From an uncultured Pyrinomonadaceae bacterium (GTDB lineage: Bacteria > Acidobacteriota > Blastocatellia > Pyrinomonadales > Pyrinomonadaceae): 51,049 bases of DNA. Location: NCBI GenBank assembly GCA_902805935.1, contig CADCUR010000254.1, positions 1 to 51,049 of the forward strand. Reading direction: 5' to 3'. Each line of letters starts with the position of its first letter. Positions within the stretch are counted from its first letter, which is position 1. This document shows, piece by piece, positions 9,378-51,049 of this stretch. The notes under the pieces were generated by a model. The model was not told the DNA's origin, did no database searches, and saw only the letters and a list, made by a program, of their open reading frames with translations. The translations under genes and the position numbers were made by a program.

Positions 9378-11843
9378 TTAGTTCTCCTTAGCAATCAGCA
9401 GCTCGCCCGCGTCGTGTTCGGCGCGGCTCAGATTAGGATTGACGCCGTCATAATTTTCAATCGGCAACGGCTGCGTTACTTCTGATTCCAAAGCCGCGCC
9501 GAGAACGTCGCTGACGCGCTTTGCCGGGATAATTTCCAACTCCTGGCGAACGTCTTCCGGAATATCATCCGTATCGGCTTCGTTTCTTTCCGGCAAAATT
9601 ATCCGGCGAATTCCGGCACGGTGCGCCGCCAAAACTTTTTCTTTTATTCCGCCGACGGGAAATACAAGACCCGACAATGTAATCTCGCCGGTCATCGCCG
9701 TATCTGAGCGAACTTTTCTGCCTGTGTAAAGCGACGCCAGCGCCGAAGCCATGGTAACGCCGGCGCTCGGACCGTCTTTCGGAATCGCGCCCGCCGGAAC
9801 GTGCAGATGAACGCCGTTGCCTTTTATCGCGCCTGCGTCAATTCCGAATTCCGAGGCGTGCGACCAGAGATACGAGCGCGCCGCCTGTGCCGATTCTTTC
9901 ATTACGTCGCCGAGCTGTCCGGTTAAAGTCAAACCGCCGCCGCCGGGCAGCGCGGTCGCTTCGATAAACAAAACCTCGCCGCCCATCTCGGTCCAAGCCA
10001 TTCCGGTCGCAACTCCGGCGGGCAATTCCGCGCGGGCTTCTTCCGGGTAAAAACGCGCCGCGCCGAGATAGCCTTTTACGTCGTTCGCCGTGATTGTGAC
10101 TTTATCGGTGTTGCCCTGCGCGACCTTGAGCGCGACTTTTCGCGCCAGATTTCCGACGGTTCTCTCCAGTTGCCGGACGCCCGCTTCGCGCGTGTAGCGC
10201 GCCGTAAGGAGATTTACCGCGTCGTCGGTAATTTCAAGCTGTTCCGCCGTCAAGCCGTTTTCCTTTATCTGCCGCGGAATCAGATATTCTTTGGCAATGT
10301 TTAATTTCTCGGCGTCCGAATATCCGGCGAGCTGAATGATTTCCATTCTATCGCGCAACGGAACCGGAATCGGCGCGAGTTGATTCGCCGTCGCAATAAA
10401 GAAAACCTTCGACAAATCGAACGGCAAATCGAGGTAATGGTCGCGGAAAGTATTGTTCTGCTGCGGGTCGAGAATTTCTAAAAGCGCCGAAGCCGGATCG
10501 CCCCGGTAATCGTTGCCGAGCTTGTCAATTTCGTCTAACATCAGCACCGGATTATTCACGCCGACGCGCCTTAAAGATTGAATAACTCTGCCCGGCATCG
10601 CGCCGACATATGTTCGGCGATGTCCGCGCAATTCGGCTTCGTCGCGCATACCGCCCAAACTCATTCGTTCAAATTCGCGTCCCAGAGCGCGGGCAATCGA
10701 ACGCCCCAAAGAAGTTTTGCCGACGCCCGGCGGTCCGACAAAAAGAATAATCGGACTTTTTGAATCGGGTCGCAGTTTAACGACCGCCAATGATTCTAAA
10801 ATTCTCTCTTTAATATCTTCCAAACCGTAATGGTCTTCGTCGAGAATTTTCGCCGCTTCAACCAAATCGAGTTTTTCCTCGCTCGATTTTTTCCAGGGCA
10901 AATCCAGAACGTATTCCAAATAAGTTCGGATCACGTGATAATCCGGCGCGGCTTGCGGCAGTTGTTCCATTCGGCGCAGTTCGCGCTCGGCTTCCTTGCG
11001 AACTTCTTCGGGCAAATCCGCCTGGTCTAATCTTTCCCGAAGCTGCGCGGCTTCCGCTTTTTCTCCGCTTTCGTCTTCACCGAGTTCTTTTTGAATCGCC
11101 TTCATCTGCTGACGCAGAATGTAATCGCGCTGCGCCTTGTCCATTTCGCCCTGCGCTTCGGTCGCAATTTTCGAGCGAATCTGCATAATCTCGACTTCTT
11201 TGGCGAGAGCGGCGTGCGTCAGCGTCAGCAATTCGTCAATCGTCGCGGCTTCGAGCATTTTCTGTTCGGTTTCCACGCCCAAATCGAGAACCGACGCGAG
11301 AAAATAAGACAATTGAACCGGATTAGTCTGCGAGATGACTGCCATCCGAATTTCCGGCGGAACCTGCGGCAGCATCGCCAGCGCTTCCTGCACGAGACCT
11401 TGAATGTTGCGCTTCAACGCTTCGACATTTTCGTTATCGGTAATCGTCAAATCGGGCAGTTTCTCGACTTTCGCTTTGATGAACGGCTGTTCCTGCGCCC
11501 AATATAAAACACGCACGCGGTCAACGCCCTGCACGATAAGCTGCATCGAGCCGTCGGCGCGCATCATTCGTTTGATATTGACGATTGTCCCGACTTCGTA
11601 AAGGTCAACGGGTTTCGCCTCTTGTCCGGTCACGTCCTGGTTTTTCAGGGTGATGCAGCAGATAAGTTTTTCTTCGGTCGAGAGAGCGAATTCGACCGCT
11701 TTGACCGAACGCTCGCGCCCGACCGAAAGCGGCACGACGGTTTCGGGAAACAAGGTTGTGTTTTGCAGAGGCAAAACCGCCATTTCAAATTGGGGCGCGG
11801 CGTTTGTCGGTTCGTTTAGATTTTTTGTTGTTTCTTCTGCCAT
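9378..11843 (-). CDS. lon: Lon ATP-dependent serine protease
   Basis: 821-residue AAA+ protease that degrades misfolded and short-lived regulatory proteins in the cytoplasm. The LON substrate-binding domain covers about residues 18-215, followed by the AAA+ module with Walker A GPPGVGKT (Lys376) and Walker B MLDEIDKL. The protease domain carries the catalytic dyad in KDGPSAG (Ser693) and GGIKEK (Lys736), 43 residues apart as in the E. coli enzyme. Length is normal. A small heat-shock gene lies immediately upstream on the same strand, giving a proteostasis pair. Confidence 0.98.
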
Positions 11844-43499: not shown

Positions 43500-44261
43500 A
43501 TGAAAAAACTTCTATCATTGTTCCTGACCATTCTGTTTTTACAAAGCGCTTTTTGTTTTGTTTTGTTACCGACGAAAGTTTCGGCGCGTAATACAGCCGC
43601 CCGATCTTTTCAGCAGGAAATCCTCACCAATCAATCGGTTATTGATATGGTCGGGTCAAAATTTTCTGAGGAACTTATTATCGCCAAAATCAAATCGTCG
43701 AGAAATTCTTTCGACACTTCGGCGGCGGCTTTGCAGCAACTAAAAAAAGTCGGCGTGTCCGATGCAGTGATTCTGGCGATGGTGCAGAAAGCATCGGGAA
43801 TGGAGATGACGACGAGCGGCGCGACGGCGACGCTGACGATTCCCGACGGAACCGAACTTAAGATTATGACGACCGAAGACATCAGCGGTCAAAAAGTCGT
43901 CGAAGGCGATCCGCTGACGTTCAAGGTTGCAGAAGACGTGAAAGTCAGCACCACTGTCGTCATCGCCAAAGACGTCATCGTTAAAGGAACGGTTTCGAGC
44001 GCCAAGAAAAAAGGTTTTATGGGCAAAGGCGGCGAACTGAGCGTCCGTATCGAATCCACGCAAACCGTTGACGGTCAAAAGGTAAAACTGCGCGCCTCAA
44101 AGAGCGGCGCGGGCGGCGACAATATGGGTTCGACAGTCGCCTTAACGGTTTTGTTCGGACCGCTCGGCTTGCTACGCAAAGGCAAAGAAGCCAAAATCAA
44201 AGCCGGAACGATTCTGACCGCTTACACAGACGAAGCTAAAAACGTCACGGCTGCCAACTAA
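43500..44261 (+). CDS. Secreted protein of unknown function
   Basis: 253 residues with a signal peptide (about 1-30, ending VSARN). Residues ~40-95 (LTNQSVIDMVGSKFSEELIIAKIKSS...AILAMV) form a short helical segment like those often found in Acidobacteriota exported proteins. Residues ~105-245 are beta-rich with AKDVIVKGTVSSAKKKGFMG and GELSVRIESTQTVDGQKV, then a hydrophobic VALTVLFGPLGLL. Function unknown. Confidence 0.75.
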   Translation: MKKLLSLFLTILFLQSAFCFVLLPTKVSARNTAARSFQQEILTNQSVIDMVGSKFSEELIIAKIKSSRNSFDTSAAALQQLKKVGVSDAVILAMVQKASGMEMTTSGATATLTIPDGTELKIMTTEDISGQKVVEGDPLTFKVAEDVKVSTTVVIAKDVIVKGTVSSAKKKGFMGKGGELSVRIESTQTVDGQKVKLRASKSGAGGDNMGSTVALTVLFGPLGLLRKGKEAKIKAGTILTAYTDEAKNVTAAN

Positions 44262-45977: not shown

Positions 45978-47504
45978 ATGAGACGAAATTTTTCTTCAAT
46001 CACTCTGCTCGTCTTGCTGATGACAGCGGCGACAATGAACGCGGCGCAATCGCCGGACAAAATCTTAAAACAGGCGACGCGAGCTTTAGGCGGCGAAAAG
46101 GTTTTGCAGTCGGTTAAATCCTGGCGGAAAACGGGAACAATAACCAGGCTCAAAGACGGCGCGAGCGGCAACTTCAAGGAACAAGCCGCGCAGCCGAATC
46201 TCTATAACGCCGCTTTTGATTTGAACGGTTTTGAAACGGAAACCGGCTTTAACGGCAAATCCGGCTGGACACGCAATTCGCGCGACGGTCTGCGAACTTT
46301 GACGGGCGAAGCGAGCCGCGATTTCGGGGCGGAAGCCGTTTATCGAAACGCGCGTTGGTTCAATTACAAAAAGAATAAATCGAAAGTCGTCGCGGGCGGA
46401 AAATCGGTCGTGAACGGAAAATCCGCCACACTGTTTGTTCTGACAACCCCTAAAGGCGTTTCCGTAAAAATATATTTCGACGCGGCGAGCGGGCTGCCGA
46501 TTCGTGAAGAAATTCCGGCGGGCGATTCGACGAGCGTTTCCGATTTCAGCAATTTCCGCCAGGTAAACGGCGTGCAGGAACCGTTTCTGATTACAAAAAG
46601 AATCGGTGAAGAGGTTTATGAAATAAAGCTCGATCAAATCGCGTACAACGTTTCAATTTCCAAAGAAGATTTTGATTTTCCGAAAGTCTCCGGCGAACCG
46701 CTGCCCGATATTCCGTCGCTTCTTAAAGAATTACAGGCGAACGAAGACCGCATTGAAGCGATTTTAGAAGATTACTCATTCACGCAAAAAAGCACGAGCC
46801 GCGAACTCGGCAAAGACGGCGTTTTGCACGAAAAAGAATCCGAAACGTTTCAGCTTTCGTTTTACAAAGGCAACCGAATTCGTCGTCTGATTGAAAAAAA
46901 CGGCAAGTCGCTGTCAGAGAAAGAACAGGCTGATGAAGATAAAAACGTGCAAAAGCGCGTTGCGGAAATCGAAAAGGAAATCGCTAAAAAAGAAGCCCGC
47001 GCCGCCGTCGCGCAGACGAAAACCGGCACGCCCGACGAAGACAACCGGCGCATTTCAATCGCCGAAGTTTTGCGGGCTTCGCGGCTAGTCAATCCGCGCC
47101 GCGAACGCTTTCGCGGACGCGATGTCGTCGTCTTCGATTTCGAGCCGAACCCCGATTTTGACTTTAAAAACGCGAAAAGTTTTCTGAAATTTTTCGGCAA
47201 AACGGCGGGCGTAATGTGGATTGATGAAAAAGATAAACAAGTAGCGCGTCTCGAAGCCGTCTTGTTTGACAACTTCAAAATCGGCGGCGGATTTCTCGCC
47301 AATCTGAAAAAAGGCGCGTCGTTCGCTCTCGAACAAGAGCGCGTGGGCGACGAAATCTGGCTGCCGTCGGTCGCCGACGTTAATCTCTCCGTTAAAGTCC
47401 TACTCGTCAAAGGCATCAACGTCAATCAAATCGTCAAATCCTACGACTACCGGAAATTTAAGACTGAAATCAAAGACTCGAAAGTTGACGAGATAAAAAA
47501 TTAG
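45978..47504 (+). CDS. Secreted two-module protein, LolA/outer-membrane-lipoprotein-sorting-like
   Basis: 508 residues with a signal peptide (about 1-23, TMNAAQ). Residues ~25-235 read like the LolA/LppX-type half-barrel seen in many exported acidobacterial proteins (ALGGEKVLQSVKSWRKTGTITR start, then strands ending KEDFDFP). A charged segment (~240-360) with coiled-coil character leads to a second beta module (~365-508) with GRDVVVFDFEPN and IWLPSV. A hydrophobic-ligand or envelope role is possible but not shown. Follows the preceding gene by 4 nt. Confidence 0.7.
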   Translation: MRRNFSSITLLVLLMTAATMNAAQSPDKILKQATRALGGEKVLQSVKSWRKTGTITRLKDGASGNFKEQAAQPNLYNAAFDLNGFETETGFNGKSGWTRNSRDGLRTLTGEASRDFGAEAVYRNARWFNYKKNKSKVVAGGKSVVNGKSATLFVLTTPKGVSVKIYFDAASGLPIREEIPAGDSTSVSDFSNFRQVNGVQEPFLITKRIGEEVYEIKLDQIAYNVSISKEDFDFPKVSGEPLPDIPSLLKELQANEDRIEAILEDYSFTQKSTSRELGKDGVLHEKESETFQLSFYKGNRIRRLIEKNGKSLSEKEQADEDKNVQKRVAEIEKEIAKKEARAAVAQTKTGTPDEDNRRISIAEVLRASRLVNPRRERFRGRDVVVFDFEPNPDFDFKNAKSFLKFFGKTAGVMWIDEKDKQVARLEAVLFDNFKIGGGFLANLKKGASFALEQERVGDEIWLPSVADVNLSVKVLLVKGINVNQIVKSYDYRKFKTEIKDSKVDEIKN

Positions 47505-47573: not shown

Positions 47574-48008
47574 TTATACCGGGTGAGCCGTTACGGATTG
47601 AGATGCTTCCGAAACCGGAATTCGGTATATGCCGAGCGTCCAGTCCAAATCAAAAAGCGCGTAATCGCAAGTCAGTTCCTCGCCTGCATTTATATTTCGG
47701 CGAGTAATGGTTAAATCTTCTTCTTCACCCGAATAAATATCAAAACAATTCGGGTTTTCGGAATGATTGAAAAAACGCGCGTCGTCGCCGCATAAAACAT
47801 ACAAACCCGAATGTTTTTCCCGGTAACTGTATTTACGAATTTGCTCGCGCGCGCTTTCCGTTAATAGCTCGATTCGTTCTTCGGCAAAGCGCAAATCAAT
47901 TAATTCGTGAAATTTCCAGATTACCGTGCCTTCGCGAATAAATTCGTCGGCGAACAAGCCGATGCCGTGGATCGGGCTGACATCGAGTTTGGTTTTGACC
48001 AGTAACAT
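47574..48008 (-). CDS. Stand-alone SET-domain protein (putative lysine methyltransferase)
   Basis: 144 residues that make up little more than a SET domain. GIGLFADEFIREGTVIW (about 15-31) is the first SET strand pair, RFFNHSENPNC (78-88) the SAM-binding NHS motif, and AGEELTCDY (108-116) the pseudoknot GEELTxDY with catalytic Tyr. No pre- or post-SET cysteines except Cys88. Bacterial SET proteins can methylate lysine in proteins; target unknown. Third gene of the ATP-grasp/decarboxylase unit, 18 nt after the transglutaminase-like gene. Confidence 0.85.
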   Translation of the reverse strand: MLLVKTKLDVSPIHGIGLFADEFIREGTVIWKFHELIDLRFAEERIELLTESAREQIRKYSYREKHSGLYVLCGDDARFFNHSENPNCFDIYSGEEEDLTITRRNINAGEELTCDYALFDLDWTLGIYRIPVSEASQSVTAHPV

Positions 48009-48026
48009 TTGAAATTCACCCGTTTA

Positions 48027-48701
48027 TTAATTTACATTCGTCCATCGCCACGCATCAAAACGATGTTTTCCCCAAGTAAAACTCGCGTCTGGAGACAGGT
48101 TAAAAGCCGAAAGGCGAATTGCCAATAACGCGCCGTAACCGTCTTTCGAGTTCGGGTCAACCCACCAGCCCGCGCTCGCGTCCCAGATTTTAATTTCGCC
48201 GTCGCCCGCCTCAATCGCGCAGCCTTCGTGGTAAATCAAATCGTTGTTCATCCAACGAAGCTGTTCGCTCGTCTCATTCCAGCTATTTGACCATTGACTG
48301 GTCGAGGCTTCGGAATATCTCTGAACCATTTGCAGGCGATAGTTTTTTACGCCGCGGGCAGTGAAAACCGTCGAAGCCAGCGCTGCCAGCGCGCCGCAGT
48401 CGAGCGTTTTCTTTCGCACGGCTTCGCACCAGTAAATCGGAAACGACGACGCGCCCCAATTAAATTTCAGGCGCAGCCAGCGCGGTCCGGTCAAAATGCT
48501 CGCGCCGCCGAGTTCGGAAAAATCCGTCGAGGTAATCCATTCGCGCGCGATTTCACAGCACATTTTCCCGTGATGCGAAATCTCCGAAGCATGCCAATCC
48601 TGCCATTTTTCATAAACCTCTGCCGATTTATGAAAGCCATTGCCGTTTGTTTCGATATTTTTTGTTTCGACTGTTGCCGTTTTAACCGCGTCCGAATACA
48701 T
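48027..48701 (-). CDS. Transglutaminase-like cysteine protein in ATP-grasp cluster
   Basis: 224 residues, no signal peptide. A papain/transglutaminase-like triad can be picked out: Cys102 in KKTLDCGALAALAS at a helix start, His158 in LIYHEGCAI on a strand, and Asp174 in IKIWDASAGWWVDP on the next strand. Order and spacing (Cys, ~56, His, 16, Asp) fit the transglutaminase-like superfamily. It may hydrolyse or transfer amide/isopeptide bonds. Its start overlaps the end of the upstream fusion gene by 20 nt, so the two are coupled. Family is inferred from motifs only. Confidence 0.75.
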   Translation of the reverse strand: MYSDAVKTATVETKNIETNGNGFHKSAEVYEKWQDWHASEISHHGKMCCEIAREWITSTDFSELGGASILTGPRWLRLKFNWGASSFPIYWCEAVRKKTLDCGALAALASTVFTARGVKNYRLQMVQRYSEASTSQWSNSWNETSEQLRWMNNDLIYHEGCAIEAGDGEIKIWDASAGWWVDPNSKDGYGALLAIRLSAFNLSPDASFTWGKHRFDAWRWTNVN

Positions 48702-50952
48702 AACTCATACTCCTATCGTAAGCTCCGGCGTCGCAGAAGACGAGAATATCGCCGACCTCCGCCGTTTCGGGCAATTCCACATTCGAGGCGACAATATCGT
48801 GTTCCATACACAGCCTGCCCAAAAGCTGTGTTTTGCCTCGGTCCAAAGATTTCCATCCGCCGTTTTTGCCGTCCTGACACAAAATCCGGTGCGGGTAGAA
48901 AAAATACATCGGAAGCTCGGCAATCGAGCCGTCCACGACGACTTCCTGCCAGCCATCGTTTTGACCGCGAATCTCCAGAATCTGCATCGCCACCGCCATC
49001 GAAGGCTGCGCGAGGGCTTTTCCCGGTTCGGAAAAAATCCGTTTGACGTTCGGGAGAAATTCAGGGATAAGCTCGATTGCCTTGCGGAATTTCTCGCCGG
49101 AATTTTTGCCCAAATCTTCGGGAAACCAGCCGCCGCCAACATCGAGAATTTCGATCAGCCTGCCGGATAACGCTTCGATTGAACCGCACCAGCGAAGAAT
49201 TGATTCAAACAAATGCCACCAATTCCCGACACCGACGTTCGCGCTCGCCATATGGAAATGCACGCCGAATTTGCACTGTTTGGGAATGCGTTTGACGGCT
49301 TCGAGAAGCGTTTCAAAAGTTTCCGGCGTGTCAATCGCAATGCCGAAACGCGAGCGGATATTCGGCGTTCTGATGCGAATGCCGAGAAATTCGGTTTTCA
49401 GTTCGCCGCTTTCGACTTCCGCGATGACTCGATTAAGTTCCTCAATCGAATCGCAGAAAATCGTGTAAAACGAAGCGTCCGACAGCGTTTCGCGGCGCCA
49501 CCATTTCGCCGGACCGTTCAAGATAATCTGTTCGGGTTTGAAACCGGCAGCGAGCGCTTTTTTCACTTCCAAAAGACTAATCGCTTCAGCGAAAAAGCCG
49601 GAATCGTGCGCGAGTTTTACCAGGCGGTCGTCCGGGTTGGTTTTAAAACTGTAAGCATTGATTACCTCGATTTCGTCGGTCGAAAGCTCTTTTGACAACG
49701 TGGCGGCGCGAGCGAAATAATCGGCGGCGGTCGTTTTCAGAAACAAGCTCGCGGGCGTTTGCATCTCCGAAAAATCCATCGCCGCCAGATCGTCAACAAA
49801 TGTTTCTGGAATAATCGTCGGTTGATTTTTCGATTTATTGCCGTTGCCATTACTGACTTGTCCGTTGTCGAAATCGAGTTTATGCAGTCGGTTGGCGAAT
49901 TGAAGAAGTCCAGACGGATGTTTCAGCGAATGACCGATTGCGCCGCCGAACGGTTCGGGCAGCGGCGACAAAGGATATTCGCCGCGCACGGGAATTTCCA
50001 AAACGACTCGCGTAAATTCTTCGCCGGTTGCTATCGATTTCTGCGCTCGAACGCCGGTCGCGCCTTCGATTAAAGCCGCCGGAATGTTGCGCCCGGTTAT
50101 CGTCGAGCCGTGAATCCACGCGGGAAAACGCGGATTTACTTCGAGCAGCCACAATTGATTGTCGGCGTCGCGCACCATTTCCAATTCCGCGCCGCCCGTC
50201 CAATTTATTTGGCGAATCATCTCGCGTAAGGGAACGAGCATTTCCTCTTCGACTTCGGAAACGTCGCCCGCCCAGGTTTTGCTGAGTTCGGTCAAATCGC
50301 GTTTTCGCATTCGGATGCAGTCGAGCAATTCGCCTTGATATGCCGAAAGCGAAATTGATTCTTCGTAACCGGAAACGTGCGATTGCAAAAAGAGTTTGTC
50401 GGTCGCCCACGCGCTCGAAAGTATGCCGCGCATATCTTGAAATCCGCCCCAACCGTGAACCTTGACCGCTTCGTAATACGGACCTTTGAGCCAGACTTTC
50501 CAATCGTGTTCGCGGCAGAAAGCGTGCAAATCCCAATCAGAAAGCTCGGTCGTAACGAACGTCGGGATTTTGACTGGCAAGTATTCGTGCGCTGGAATCG
50601 CCGGTTTTCCGACTTGATTCAAGGCAGAAAGCGGCGGCGTCAGCAAATTCGGATGACCTTCGGGAAAAAGGCTGGCGAACCACATAATTTCCAAATCAAT
50701 ACTGGAAACCCAAAGCGCGCCCGAATCCAAAACCCGTTTTATTTCCCGAGCGTGCGCGTCTAAATTCAATTCGTCCCACGGACGATGCAAAGTAATTTCG
50801 TCAAAGTCCTGCCAGTGAATGCCCGAGCAGCGATTCGAGTATTCGACGCCGATGAGCTCCGCCTGCGGATACGCCTGGCGAAGCGAACGCGCAATGCCGA
50901 TGCCCGGCTGCGGATTAGTTCCGCTGTAAAGTCCGCTGATATAAATTTTCAT
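48682..50952 (-). CDS. ATP-grasp ligase fused to fold-type III PLP-dependent decarboxylase
   Basis: 756 residues, two enzymes in one chain. N-terminal part (1-~360): ATP-grasp fold with KVWLKGPYYEA (nucleotide lysine), FLQSHVSGYEESISL and LEVNPRFPAWIHG, where Glu271 and Asn273 are the expected magnesium ligands. A Gly/Asn linker (~364-378) follows. C-terminal part (~385-756): alanine-racemase-fold barrel plus beta domain, as in DAP/ornithine decarboxylases, with NAYSFKTNP (Lys437 for PLP), ILDVGGGW, SEPGKAL, the catalytic Cys715 (LCMEHD) and DAGAY (Tyr745). Likely joins an amino acid to a carboxylate and decarboxylates it or its product. Ribosome site GGGG lies 6 nt before ATG. Confidence 0.85.
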   Translation of the reverse strand: MKIYISGLYSGTNPQPGIGIARSLRQAYPQAELIGVEYSNRCSGIHWQDFDEITLHRPWDELNLDAHAREIKRVLDSGALWVSSIDLEIMWFASLFPEGHPNLLTPPLSALNQVGKPAIPAHEYLPVKIPTFVTTELSDWDLHAFCREHDWKVWLKGPYYEAVKVHGWGGFQDMRGILSSAWATDKLFLQSHVSGYEESISLSAYQGELLDCIRMRKRDLTELSKTWAGDVSEVEEEMLVPLREMIRQINWTGGAELEMVRDADNQLWLLEVNPRFPAWIHGSTITGRNIPAALIEGATGVRAQKSIATGEEFTRVVLEIPVRGEYPLSPLPEPFGGAIGHSLKHPSGLLQFANRLHKLDFDNGQVSNGNGNKSKNQPTIIPETFVDDLAAMDFSEMQTPASLFLKTTAADYFARAATLSKELSTDEIEVINAYSFKTNPDDRLVKLAHDSGFFAEAISLLEVKKALAAGFKPEQIILNGPAKWWRRETLSDASFYTIFCDSIEELNRVIAEVESGELKTEFLGIRIRTPNIRSRFGIAIDTPETFETLLEAVKRIPKQCKFGVHFHMASANVGVGNWWHLFESILRWCGSIEALSGRLIEILDVGGGWFPEDLGKNSGEKFRKAIELIPEFLPNVKRIFSEPGKALAQPSMAVAMQILEIRGQNDGWQEVVVDGSIAELPMYFFYPHRILCQDGKNGGWKSLDRGKTQLLGRLCMEHDIVASNVELPETAEVGDILVFCDAGAYDRSMSYVFGRG

Positions 50953-51049
50953 AATCCCCTTTGTTCAATTCAATTTACGAATATCGGAATTTGTTTTAAT
51001 TCGTTTTCTTAATTAGTCTCTGTTTCAAGGCTTGCCCAATACGAAGGCG

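Follow-up and report, generated by a model that had tools for sequence, protein, structure and literature searches.

An ATP-grasp/PLP-decarboxylase fusion and an adjoining cysteine protein form a conserved gene pair with lineage-specific partners in Pyrinomonadaceae and other bacteria

The stretch of DNA analysed here (the window) is the entire contig C254 (CADCUR010000254.1; 51,049 bp) of an uncultured Pyrinomonadaceae bacterium, whose draft genome (GCA_902805935.1, G000 in our set) comprises 317 contigs and is 89.86% complete. Close to the end of the contig lie three minus-strand open reading frames (ORFs), all of which were re-found at the positions and with the spacing given in an original prediction made from the sequence: a gene for a fusion of an ATP-grasp ligase with a pyridoxal phosphate (PLP)-dependent decarboxylase (48682-50952; 756 amino acids, aa), a gene for a cysteine protein (48027-48701; 224 aa), which overlaps the former by 20 nt, and, after an 18-nt gap, a gene for a single SET-domain protein (47574-48008; 144 aa). 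The fusion and the cysteine protein are a real, conserved unit, accompanied by oxygenases or a transporter depending on the lineage. It seems fairly probable that this is a small-molecule operon, in which the fusion would perform ligation followed by decarboxylation, the cysteine protein encoded by the overlapping gene would act on the product, lineage-specific partners would finish it, and the SET gene is a bystander.

Among 297 genomes from across the phylum, matches to the fusion at E <= 1e-20 were found only in the own genome and in G190, the latter covering the ATP-grasp part only. A plasmid collection gave 54 matching records, one of them full-length (Streptomyces zaomyceticus, L007, 33% identity), and an alignment of this protein with that of the window was used to search 84,980 species genomes. 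The search revealed 32 fusion loci, in 28 of which almost the entire protein was matched; as just two peptide patterns were scanned, this count will not include distant members. Eighteen of the loci belong to Acidobacteria/Pyrinomonadaceae (12), Chthoniobacterales (4) and Alphaproteobacteria (2), and the remaining 14 to Streptomyces (8), Cellulomonas (2), Actinokineospora (1) and three metagenome-assembled genomes labelled Pseudobacteriovorax, Oligoflexales and Proteobacteria, which are referred to as Oligoflexales-type since they group together in the tree. The nearest named relatives of the fusion are records from Pyrinomonadaceae and other Acidobacteria.

The evidence for a conserved unit comes from the gene next to the fusion. 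In an iterative profile search, the cysteine protein was found to adjoin the fusion in 25 of the 32 genome loci, as well as on the S. zaomyceticus plasmid. In 14 of these 25 loci the two genes overlap by precisely the 20 nt found in the window; in the others, with the start codons chosen, their spacing varies between an overlap of 38 nt and a gap of 49 nt. Of the seven loci without the cysteine protein, three (L019, L027 and L029) lie on contigs that end too early to tell. The original prediction called for co-occurrence of all three families in other genomes; this holds for the fusion and the cysteine protein and fails for the SET protein, relatives of which were seen in none of the 32 loci, 27 of them readable at its place.

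That a single chain carries both an ATP-grasp ligase and a fold type III PLP decarboxylase, as had been proposed, is borne out by Pfam and by the kept catalytic residues. The N-terminal ATP-grasp region (approximately residues 1-320; 49993-50952, minus strand) matches ATPgrasp_Ter (PF15632) at residues 186-309 (E 4.5e-9; 36.6 bits against a curated cut-off of 29.1). The C-terminal region with the alanine-racemase fold (approximately residues 400-756; 48682-49755, minus strand) matches Orn_Arg_deC_N at residues 429-648 (E 7.7e-18) and Orn_DAP_Arg_deC at residues 651-743 (E 1.6e-7), both above the curated cut-offs. Residues were counted in 30 full-length fusions, i.e. those of the window, the plasmid locus and 28 genome loci, leaving out L027 and L029, which are truncated by contig ends, and L039 and L040, where just the decarboxylase part is matched. 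In the PLP half, where the window protein also has H567, the PLP lysine K437, H565, E642, the catalytic C715, D719 and Y745 are kept in all 30 proteins, as is the Gly-rich loop (G606-608). In the ATP-grasp half, the putative ATP-site residues K156, E271 and N273 are each kept in 29 of 30 and E258 in all. The two residue pairs singled out beforehand, Lys437/Cys715 and Glu271/Asn273, are thus conserved in 30 and 29 of the 30 fusions, respectively, and the two halves can be placed among the PF15632 ATP-grasp ligases and the fold type III PLP decarboxylases. The ATP-grasp region searched alone against the PDB gave no useful match.

The cysteine protein has no Pfam match and no usable NCBIfam or PDB sequence match, and a sequence-profile search of the PDB gave chance-level matches only. 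C48, C49, C92, D101, C102, G103, H158, E159 and D174 are invariant in all 24 aligned members (L007, L013 and L016 were left out); C102, H158 and D174 among them make up the Cys/His/Asp set of the transglutaminase-like protein that had been predicted. Its structure model has a mean pLDDT of 85. The 50 best fold matches, all weak (E > 0.001), include a putative cysteine protease of Cytophaga, pseudomurein endoisopeptidases, LapG, vasohibins, arylamine N-acetyltransferases, PNGase and transglutaminase 2. A viral fold library yielded one unnamed match at E <= 0.001; lower matches to a phage pseudomurein endoisopeptidase and viral N-acetyltransferases fit the fold and add little. With moderate confidence, the model and the invariant residues suggest that the protein belongs to the transglutaminase superfamily.

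In the first group of lineages, the pair is usually accompanied by a further family, C3 (220-290 aa), found close to the fusion in 13 of the 32 loci, with a fragment in a fourteenth (L011). All 14 are among the 18 loci of Acidobacteria, Chthoniobacterales and Alphaproteobacteria, and none among the other 14. The four of the 18 without C3 are L019, L024, L027 and L029, and the contigs of L027 and L029 end within the fusion. Two C3 copies are present in 6 of the 13 loci. In most cases the gene lies ahead of the fusion, the two sharing 4 nt in L012; in L014 and L017 a TauD gene on the opposite strand lies between the two, in L015 and L020 C3 follows the cysteine protein, and in L031 it is on the opposite strand. 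No Pfam match better than E 0.12 was found for the family, and a PDB sequence-profile search gave only chance-level matches. A model of the L018 member (mean pLDDT 75) matches Fe(II)/2-oxoglutarate oxygenases: PDB matches at E <= 0.001 numbered 136, and prolyl hydroxylases make up most of the 50 that were listed, with modest TM-scores by query of 0.35-0.42; a nucleoside-antibiotic hydroxylase was matched at E 1.3e-6. H173, D175, H223 and R236, corresponding to an HxD...H motif and an Arg, are invariant in 18 of 18 members. C3 is therefore a predicted Fe(II)/2-oxoglutarate oxygenase with the double-stranded beta-helix fold.

In the window itself, 97 nt (50953-51049) separate the ATG of the fusion from the contig end. 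The own genome carries two C3 copies at the left end of another contig, C270, reading outward, with a divergent TauD-family gene behind them, and the order and strand of these genes are as expected for a continuation of C254. The left end of C270 thus probably continues C254 past 51049. The suggestion that the unit extends upstream of this position gains support both from these genes and from the presence of C3 near the fusion in 14 of the 32 relatives. Relatives of TauD also occur in L014, L017 and L025, and in L038 at approximately 9 kb from the fusion.

Other lineages have other companions. A urea-transporter-family gene (PF03253) follows the cysteine protein in five of the nine Streptomyces loci, counting the plasmid locus (L033-L036, the last of them from S. 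natalensis, and L041; confirmed by Pfam for L033, L036 and L041), and follows the pair in all three Oligoflexales-type loci (L028 by Pfam, two by profile). In the two Oligoflexales-type genomes searched, this gene is the sole one of the family found. Three further Streptomyces loci (L007, L032 and L037) have a fatty-acid-desaturase-like gene at this place instead. No urea transporter was found in the own genome, though the controls of that search were silent; the same search gave matches in four of eight relatives' genomes, the exceptions being those of L014, L018, L030 and L031. In the Actinokineospora locus, which lacks the cysteine protein, a gene for a B12-binding radical SAM protein (L030:8672-9979) lies directly upstream of the fusion. 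The neighbour families C5, C12, C25, K4, K7, K8, K10 and K13 were dropped, as they look like opposite-strand shadow ORFs.

The two halves of the fusion also occur as separate proteins. At E <= 1e-35, a profile built from nine ATP-grasp domains matched at least 37 of 398 Pseudomonadota genomes; the true number may be higher, as no more than five candidates per genome were scored. One of the 37 is the genome of L031, which has the fusion; the other 36 (of 397) have standalone genes whose open frames, at 197-458 aa, are too small to encode the fusion. Twenty of these 36 loci (L079-L098) were analysed, domain names being checked by Pfam on proteins of L042, L081 and L090 only. The ATP-grasp gene is flanked by a PqqD-like gene and a decarboxylase gene in 20 of 20 loci (the L093 contig ends within the decarboxylase gene, and L094 has this gene in two pieces). 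The next gene, present in 19 of 20 loci (the L093 contig ends too early) and incomplete in L087, encodes a urea transporter-M23 peptidase fusion. A family of approximately 300 aa, which has no Pfam match, was seen in 15 loci and a TPR family in 16. An example is L081:6474-13425, where the PqqD-like domain is fused to a TetR-type domain. The G190 locus (L042) has a similar order: PqqD-like, ATP-grasp, decarboxylase, urea transporter-M23 peptidase fusion, a 298-aa protein without a Pfam match and an ORF of the TPR family K5. Standalone ATP-grasp genes were found in 2 of 93 genomes of the class of G190. Neither the cysteine protein nor the C3 family occurs in any of the 20 split loci or in L042. 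In the tree, the fused decarboxylases (32 rows) form one clade (100/100) and the split ones (20 rows) another (98/100). As the same two functions are encoded by adjacent genes in the split form and by one protein in the fused form, they appear to be two steps of one pathway, in agreement with the earlier suggestion on this point. Separately, a plasmid of Nitratidesulfovibrio vulgaris (NC_017311.1, 71741-75653; L102) has adjacent genes annotated as ATP-grasp, diaminopimelate decarboxylase and GNAT N-acetyltransferase.

From the domain identities, kept catalytic residues, conserved linkage and oxygenase genes of the own genome, all read from sequence, we infer the following series of reactions, including their substrates and the role of the cysteine protein. 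The ATP-grasp domain would spend ATP on linking an amino acid, through an amide, to a second small molecule, and the fused PLP domain would strip the alpha-carboxylate from the conjugated amino acid. The Cys/His/Asp protein might then transfer or hydrolyse an acyl or amide group on the decarboxylated product. Completing or moving this product would fall to lineage-specific partners, which here would be 2-oxoglutarate oxygenases (two, plus one of the TauD type) and in other lineages a desaturase-like enzyme or a protein of the urea-transporter family.

Ligation before decarboxylation is the order we would prefer, for three reasons. The best PDB match of the decarboxylase region is the N-citrylornithine decarboxylase 7kh2 (E 4.9e-18), which acts on a conjugate; the PLP half of the window protein has C-M-x-H-D as this enzyme does, the fused clade overall having C-M-E-x-D. 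Moreover, the decarboxylase half lacks the R-P-x-x-Y segment of diaminopimelate decarboxylases, which we take to bind the distal carboxylate. Finally, several enzymes of this fold, namely FigC, SbnH, AcsE, MccE and BtrK, act on conjugated amino acids, according to the excerpts of PMC7857480 and PMC8503589 used here.

Several observations weigh against this reading. The fusion of Streptomyces radicis (L038) has lost K156, Glu271 and Asn273 while keeping the decarboxylase residues, and the Cellulomonas proteins L039 and L040 (around 10001-11100), which fall in the clade of fused decarboxylases, align with the fusion over residues 399-756 alone; ligase and decarboxylase activities can therefore part. 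The profile search of the loci found no cysteine protein at L030, L038, L039 and L040. None of the 205 PDB matches of the cysteine-protein model reaches E <= 0.001, the top two being chains of axonemal complexes. The tree does not show fused and split decarboxylases as sisters, and its deep part is unsafe because of long outgroup branches. The top NCBIfam model for the decarboxylase is lysA (TIGR01048), at 95.2 bits; this is far under the cut-off of 297.9 and, as R-P-x-x-Y is also missing, the protein does not fall among the diaminopimelate decarboxylases, nor does it reach the FslC model (81.4 against a cut-off of 500). No exact overlap of at least 9 nt links the ends of C254 and C270, and the reading frame of the first C3 copy is still open where C270 ends, so the join of the two contigs stays inferred. 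Lastly, the gene set also fits the reverse order of reactions. The L038 fusion (L038:9971-12199) is also found near a glycosyltransferase family 8 gene and a gene for a 607-aa protein with a weak PLP-enzyme match.

In the reverse order, the PLP domain would make an amine from a free amino acid, and the ATP-grasp domain would then couple this amine to a carboxylate, as in the ligation of tyramine with glutamate in methylofuran synthesis. This requires the same domains and the same linkage, and ornithine, arginine and diaminopimelate decarboxylases, which use free amino acids, are among the PDB relatives of the decarboxylase half. However, a conjugate is the substrate of the nearest relative of known structure, R-P-x-x-Y is missing, and we regard this order as rather unlikely, if a serious contender.

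Ligation followed by decarboxylation of a small molecule is also to be weighed against the possibility that the operon makes a ribosomally synthesized and post-translationally modified peptide (RiPP). A leader-bound precursor would be modified, with the cysteine protein as leader peptidase, for which lasso peptides offer a precedent, and in the split form recognition would fall to the PqqD-like protein. Indeed, the PqqD-like gene stands just upstream of the ATP-grasp gene in all 20 split loci and in L042, and the domain was confirmed by Pfam on three proteins. In the own genome, however, no PqqD-like domain was matched, whereas the search matched four of six genomes, so this hallmark is missing here, and little or no room is left between oxygenase and fusion genes in L010, L012, L013, L018, L021, L022 and L025. 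Such a peptide product thus seems improbable.

The third gene of the window encodes a clear SET domain (PF00856, E 4.7e-17). Yet when all ORFs of at least 50 aa in L006-L042 were searched at E <= 10, the window's own SET gene was the sole hit and none of the 32 genome loci gave a relative; 27 of these loci are informative, since L013, L016, L019, L027 and L029 end before its place. Some SET match was obtained in 24 of 78 relatives' genomes. The four best outside relatives (G318, G301, G291 and G275; 42-65% identity) have neither fusion nor cysteine protein among the genes called nearby; in the G301 stretch, a weaker SET gene was called and the queried one was not. The predicted three-gene unit with SET was accordingly rejected, and the conserved core is reduced to two genes. 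Most likely the SET gene is a bystander, probably outside the conserved system, which may be co-transcribed in the window. In G275, the SET relative lies, perhaps by chance, approximately 2 kb from genes resembling by eye a fold type III decarboxylase and a methyltransferase (L064:3469-7231).

The original prediction had drawn on butirosin synthesis, with an amino acid ligated to a carrier protein and decarboxylated there, the cysteine protein releasing the product and the SET protein methylating a lysine. BtrK is among the PDB relatives of the decarboxylase half, but the SET protein is missing from all relatives readable at its place. The carrier expected near the genes did not appear either: neither C254 nor C270 has a PP-binding domain (the stretch between the contigs is unread), and the three matches in the genome are on C277, C6 and C286. 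This makes a carrier-based scheme still less probable than a peptide product. As for a chance adjacency of all three genes, the SET gene behaves in that way, but the fusion and the cysteine protein stay linked in Acidobacteriota, Chthoniobacterales, Alphaproteobacteria, Oligoflexales-type and Streptomyces loci, which already refutes it for these two and leaves the idea scarcely credible.

We did not find this gene set described in the open-licence literature searched, although an earlier description may exist elsewhere. The pair is split in many Pseudomonadota and in G190, and fused in Acidobacteriota, Chthoniobacterales, Alphaproteobacteria, Oligoflexales-type bacteria and Actinobacteria. As a tentative suggestion, held with less confidence than the operon itself, it might represent a widespread new type of pathway, in which the ATP-grasp/PLP-decarboxylase pair makes an amide-conjugated amine, new transglutaminase-fold and 2-oxoglutarate oxygenase families act on it, and urea-transporter-family proteins move a cargo other than urea. 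If so, a single chain would carry out ligation and then decarboxylation, the cysteine protein and the C3 oxygenases, two families that Pfam does not model, would each acquire a role open to testing, and the urea-transporter family would likely have a non-urea cargo. The product may be common in environmental bacteria, as the linkage spans several phyla and standalone ATP-grasp genes occur in 36 of 397 other Pseudomonadota genomes.

A defence function was also considered and dropped, as a PADLOC search of the three window proteins gave no defence-system match at E <= 0.01. Elsewhere in the window, ORFs at 45978-47504 and 43500-44261 (plus strand) encode proteins of 508 and 253 aa without Pfam matches at E <= 1e-5.

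Among known systems, the ATP-grasp domain of the fusion belongs to the same family as the ATPgrasp_Ter (PF15632) proteins of Ter operon neighbourhoods. Unlike these, it is joined to a decarboxylase, and the own genome has no TerD match, which led us to reject a Ter (tellurite resistance) system; the TerD search itself matched one of six genomes and 2 of 14 controls. The cysteine protein probably shares its fold and its Cys/His/Asp set with arylamine N-acetyltransferase, PNGase, LapG and PeiP, but has no usable sequence match in Pfam, NCBIfam or the PDB.

BtrJ is the ATP-grasp ligase of the butirosin pathway. This pathway likewise combines such a ligase with a decarboxylase of the same fold (for BtrK, the excerpts of PMC7857480); there, however, the genes are separate and a dedicated carrier protein is used, whereas here the two are fused and no carrier domain was found on C254 or C270. 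The unnamed split operon comes closer, with a related ATP-grasp protein and a same-fold decarboxylase encoded by adjacent genes. It differs by the lack of the cysteine protein and the 2-oxoglutarate oxygenase family and by a decarboxylase clade of its own, but shares the link to a urea transporter with the fused Oligoflexales-type and Streptomyces loci.

FslC/FigC of rhizoferrin synthesis (PDB 7kh2) has the same alanine-racemase-fold PLP decarboxylase, with C-M-x-H-D in common; in the excerpts of PMC7857480, it acts on an amide-linked amino acid and a fusion to an ATP-grasp domain, as present in our protein, is not reported. Together with the citryl-diaminopropionate decarboxylases, BtrK and MccE, such citryl-ornithine decarboxylases act on conjugates, and the same is proposed here for the fused PLP domain.

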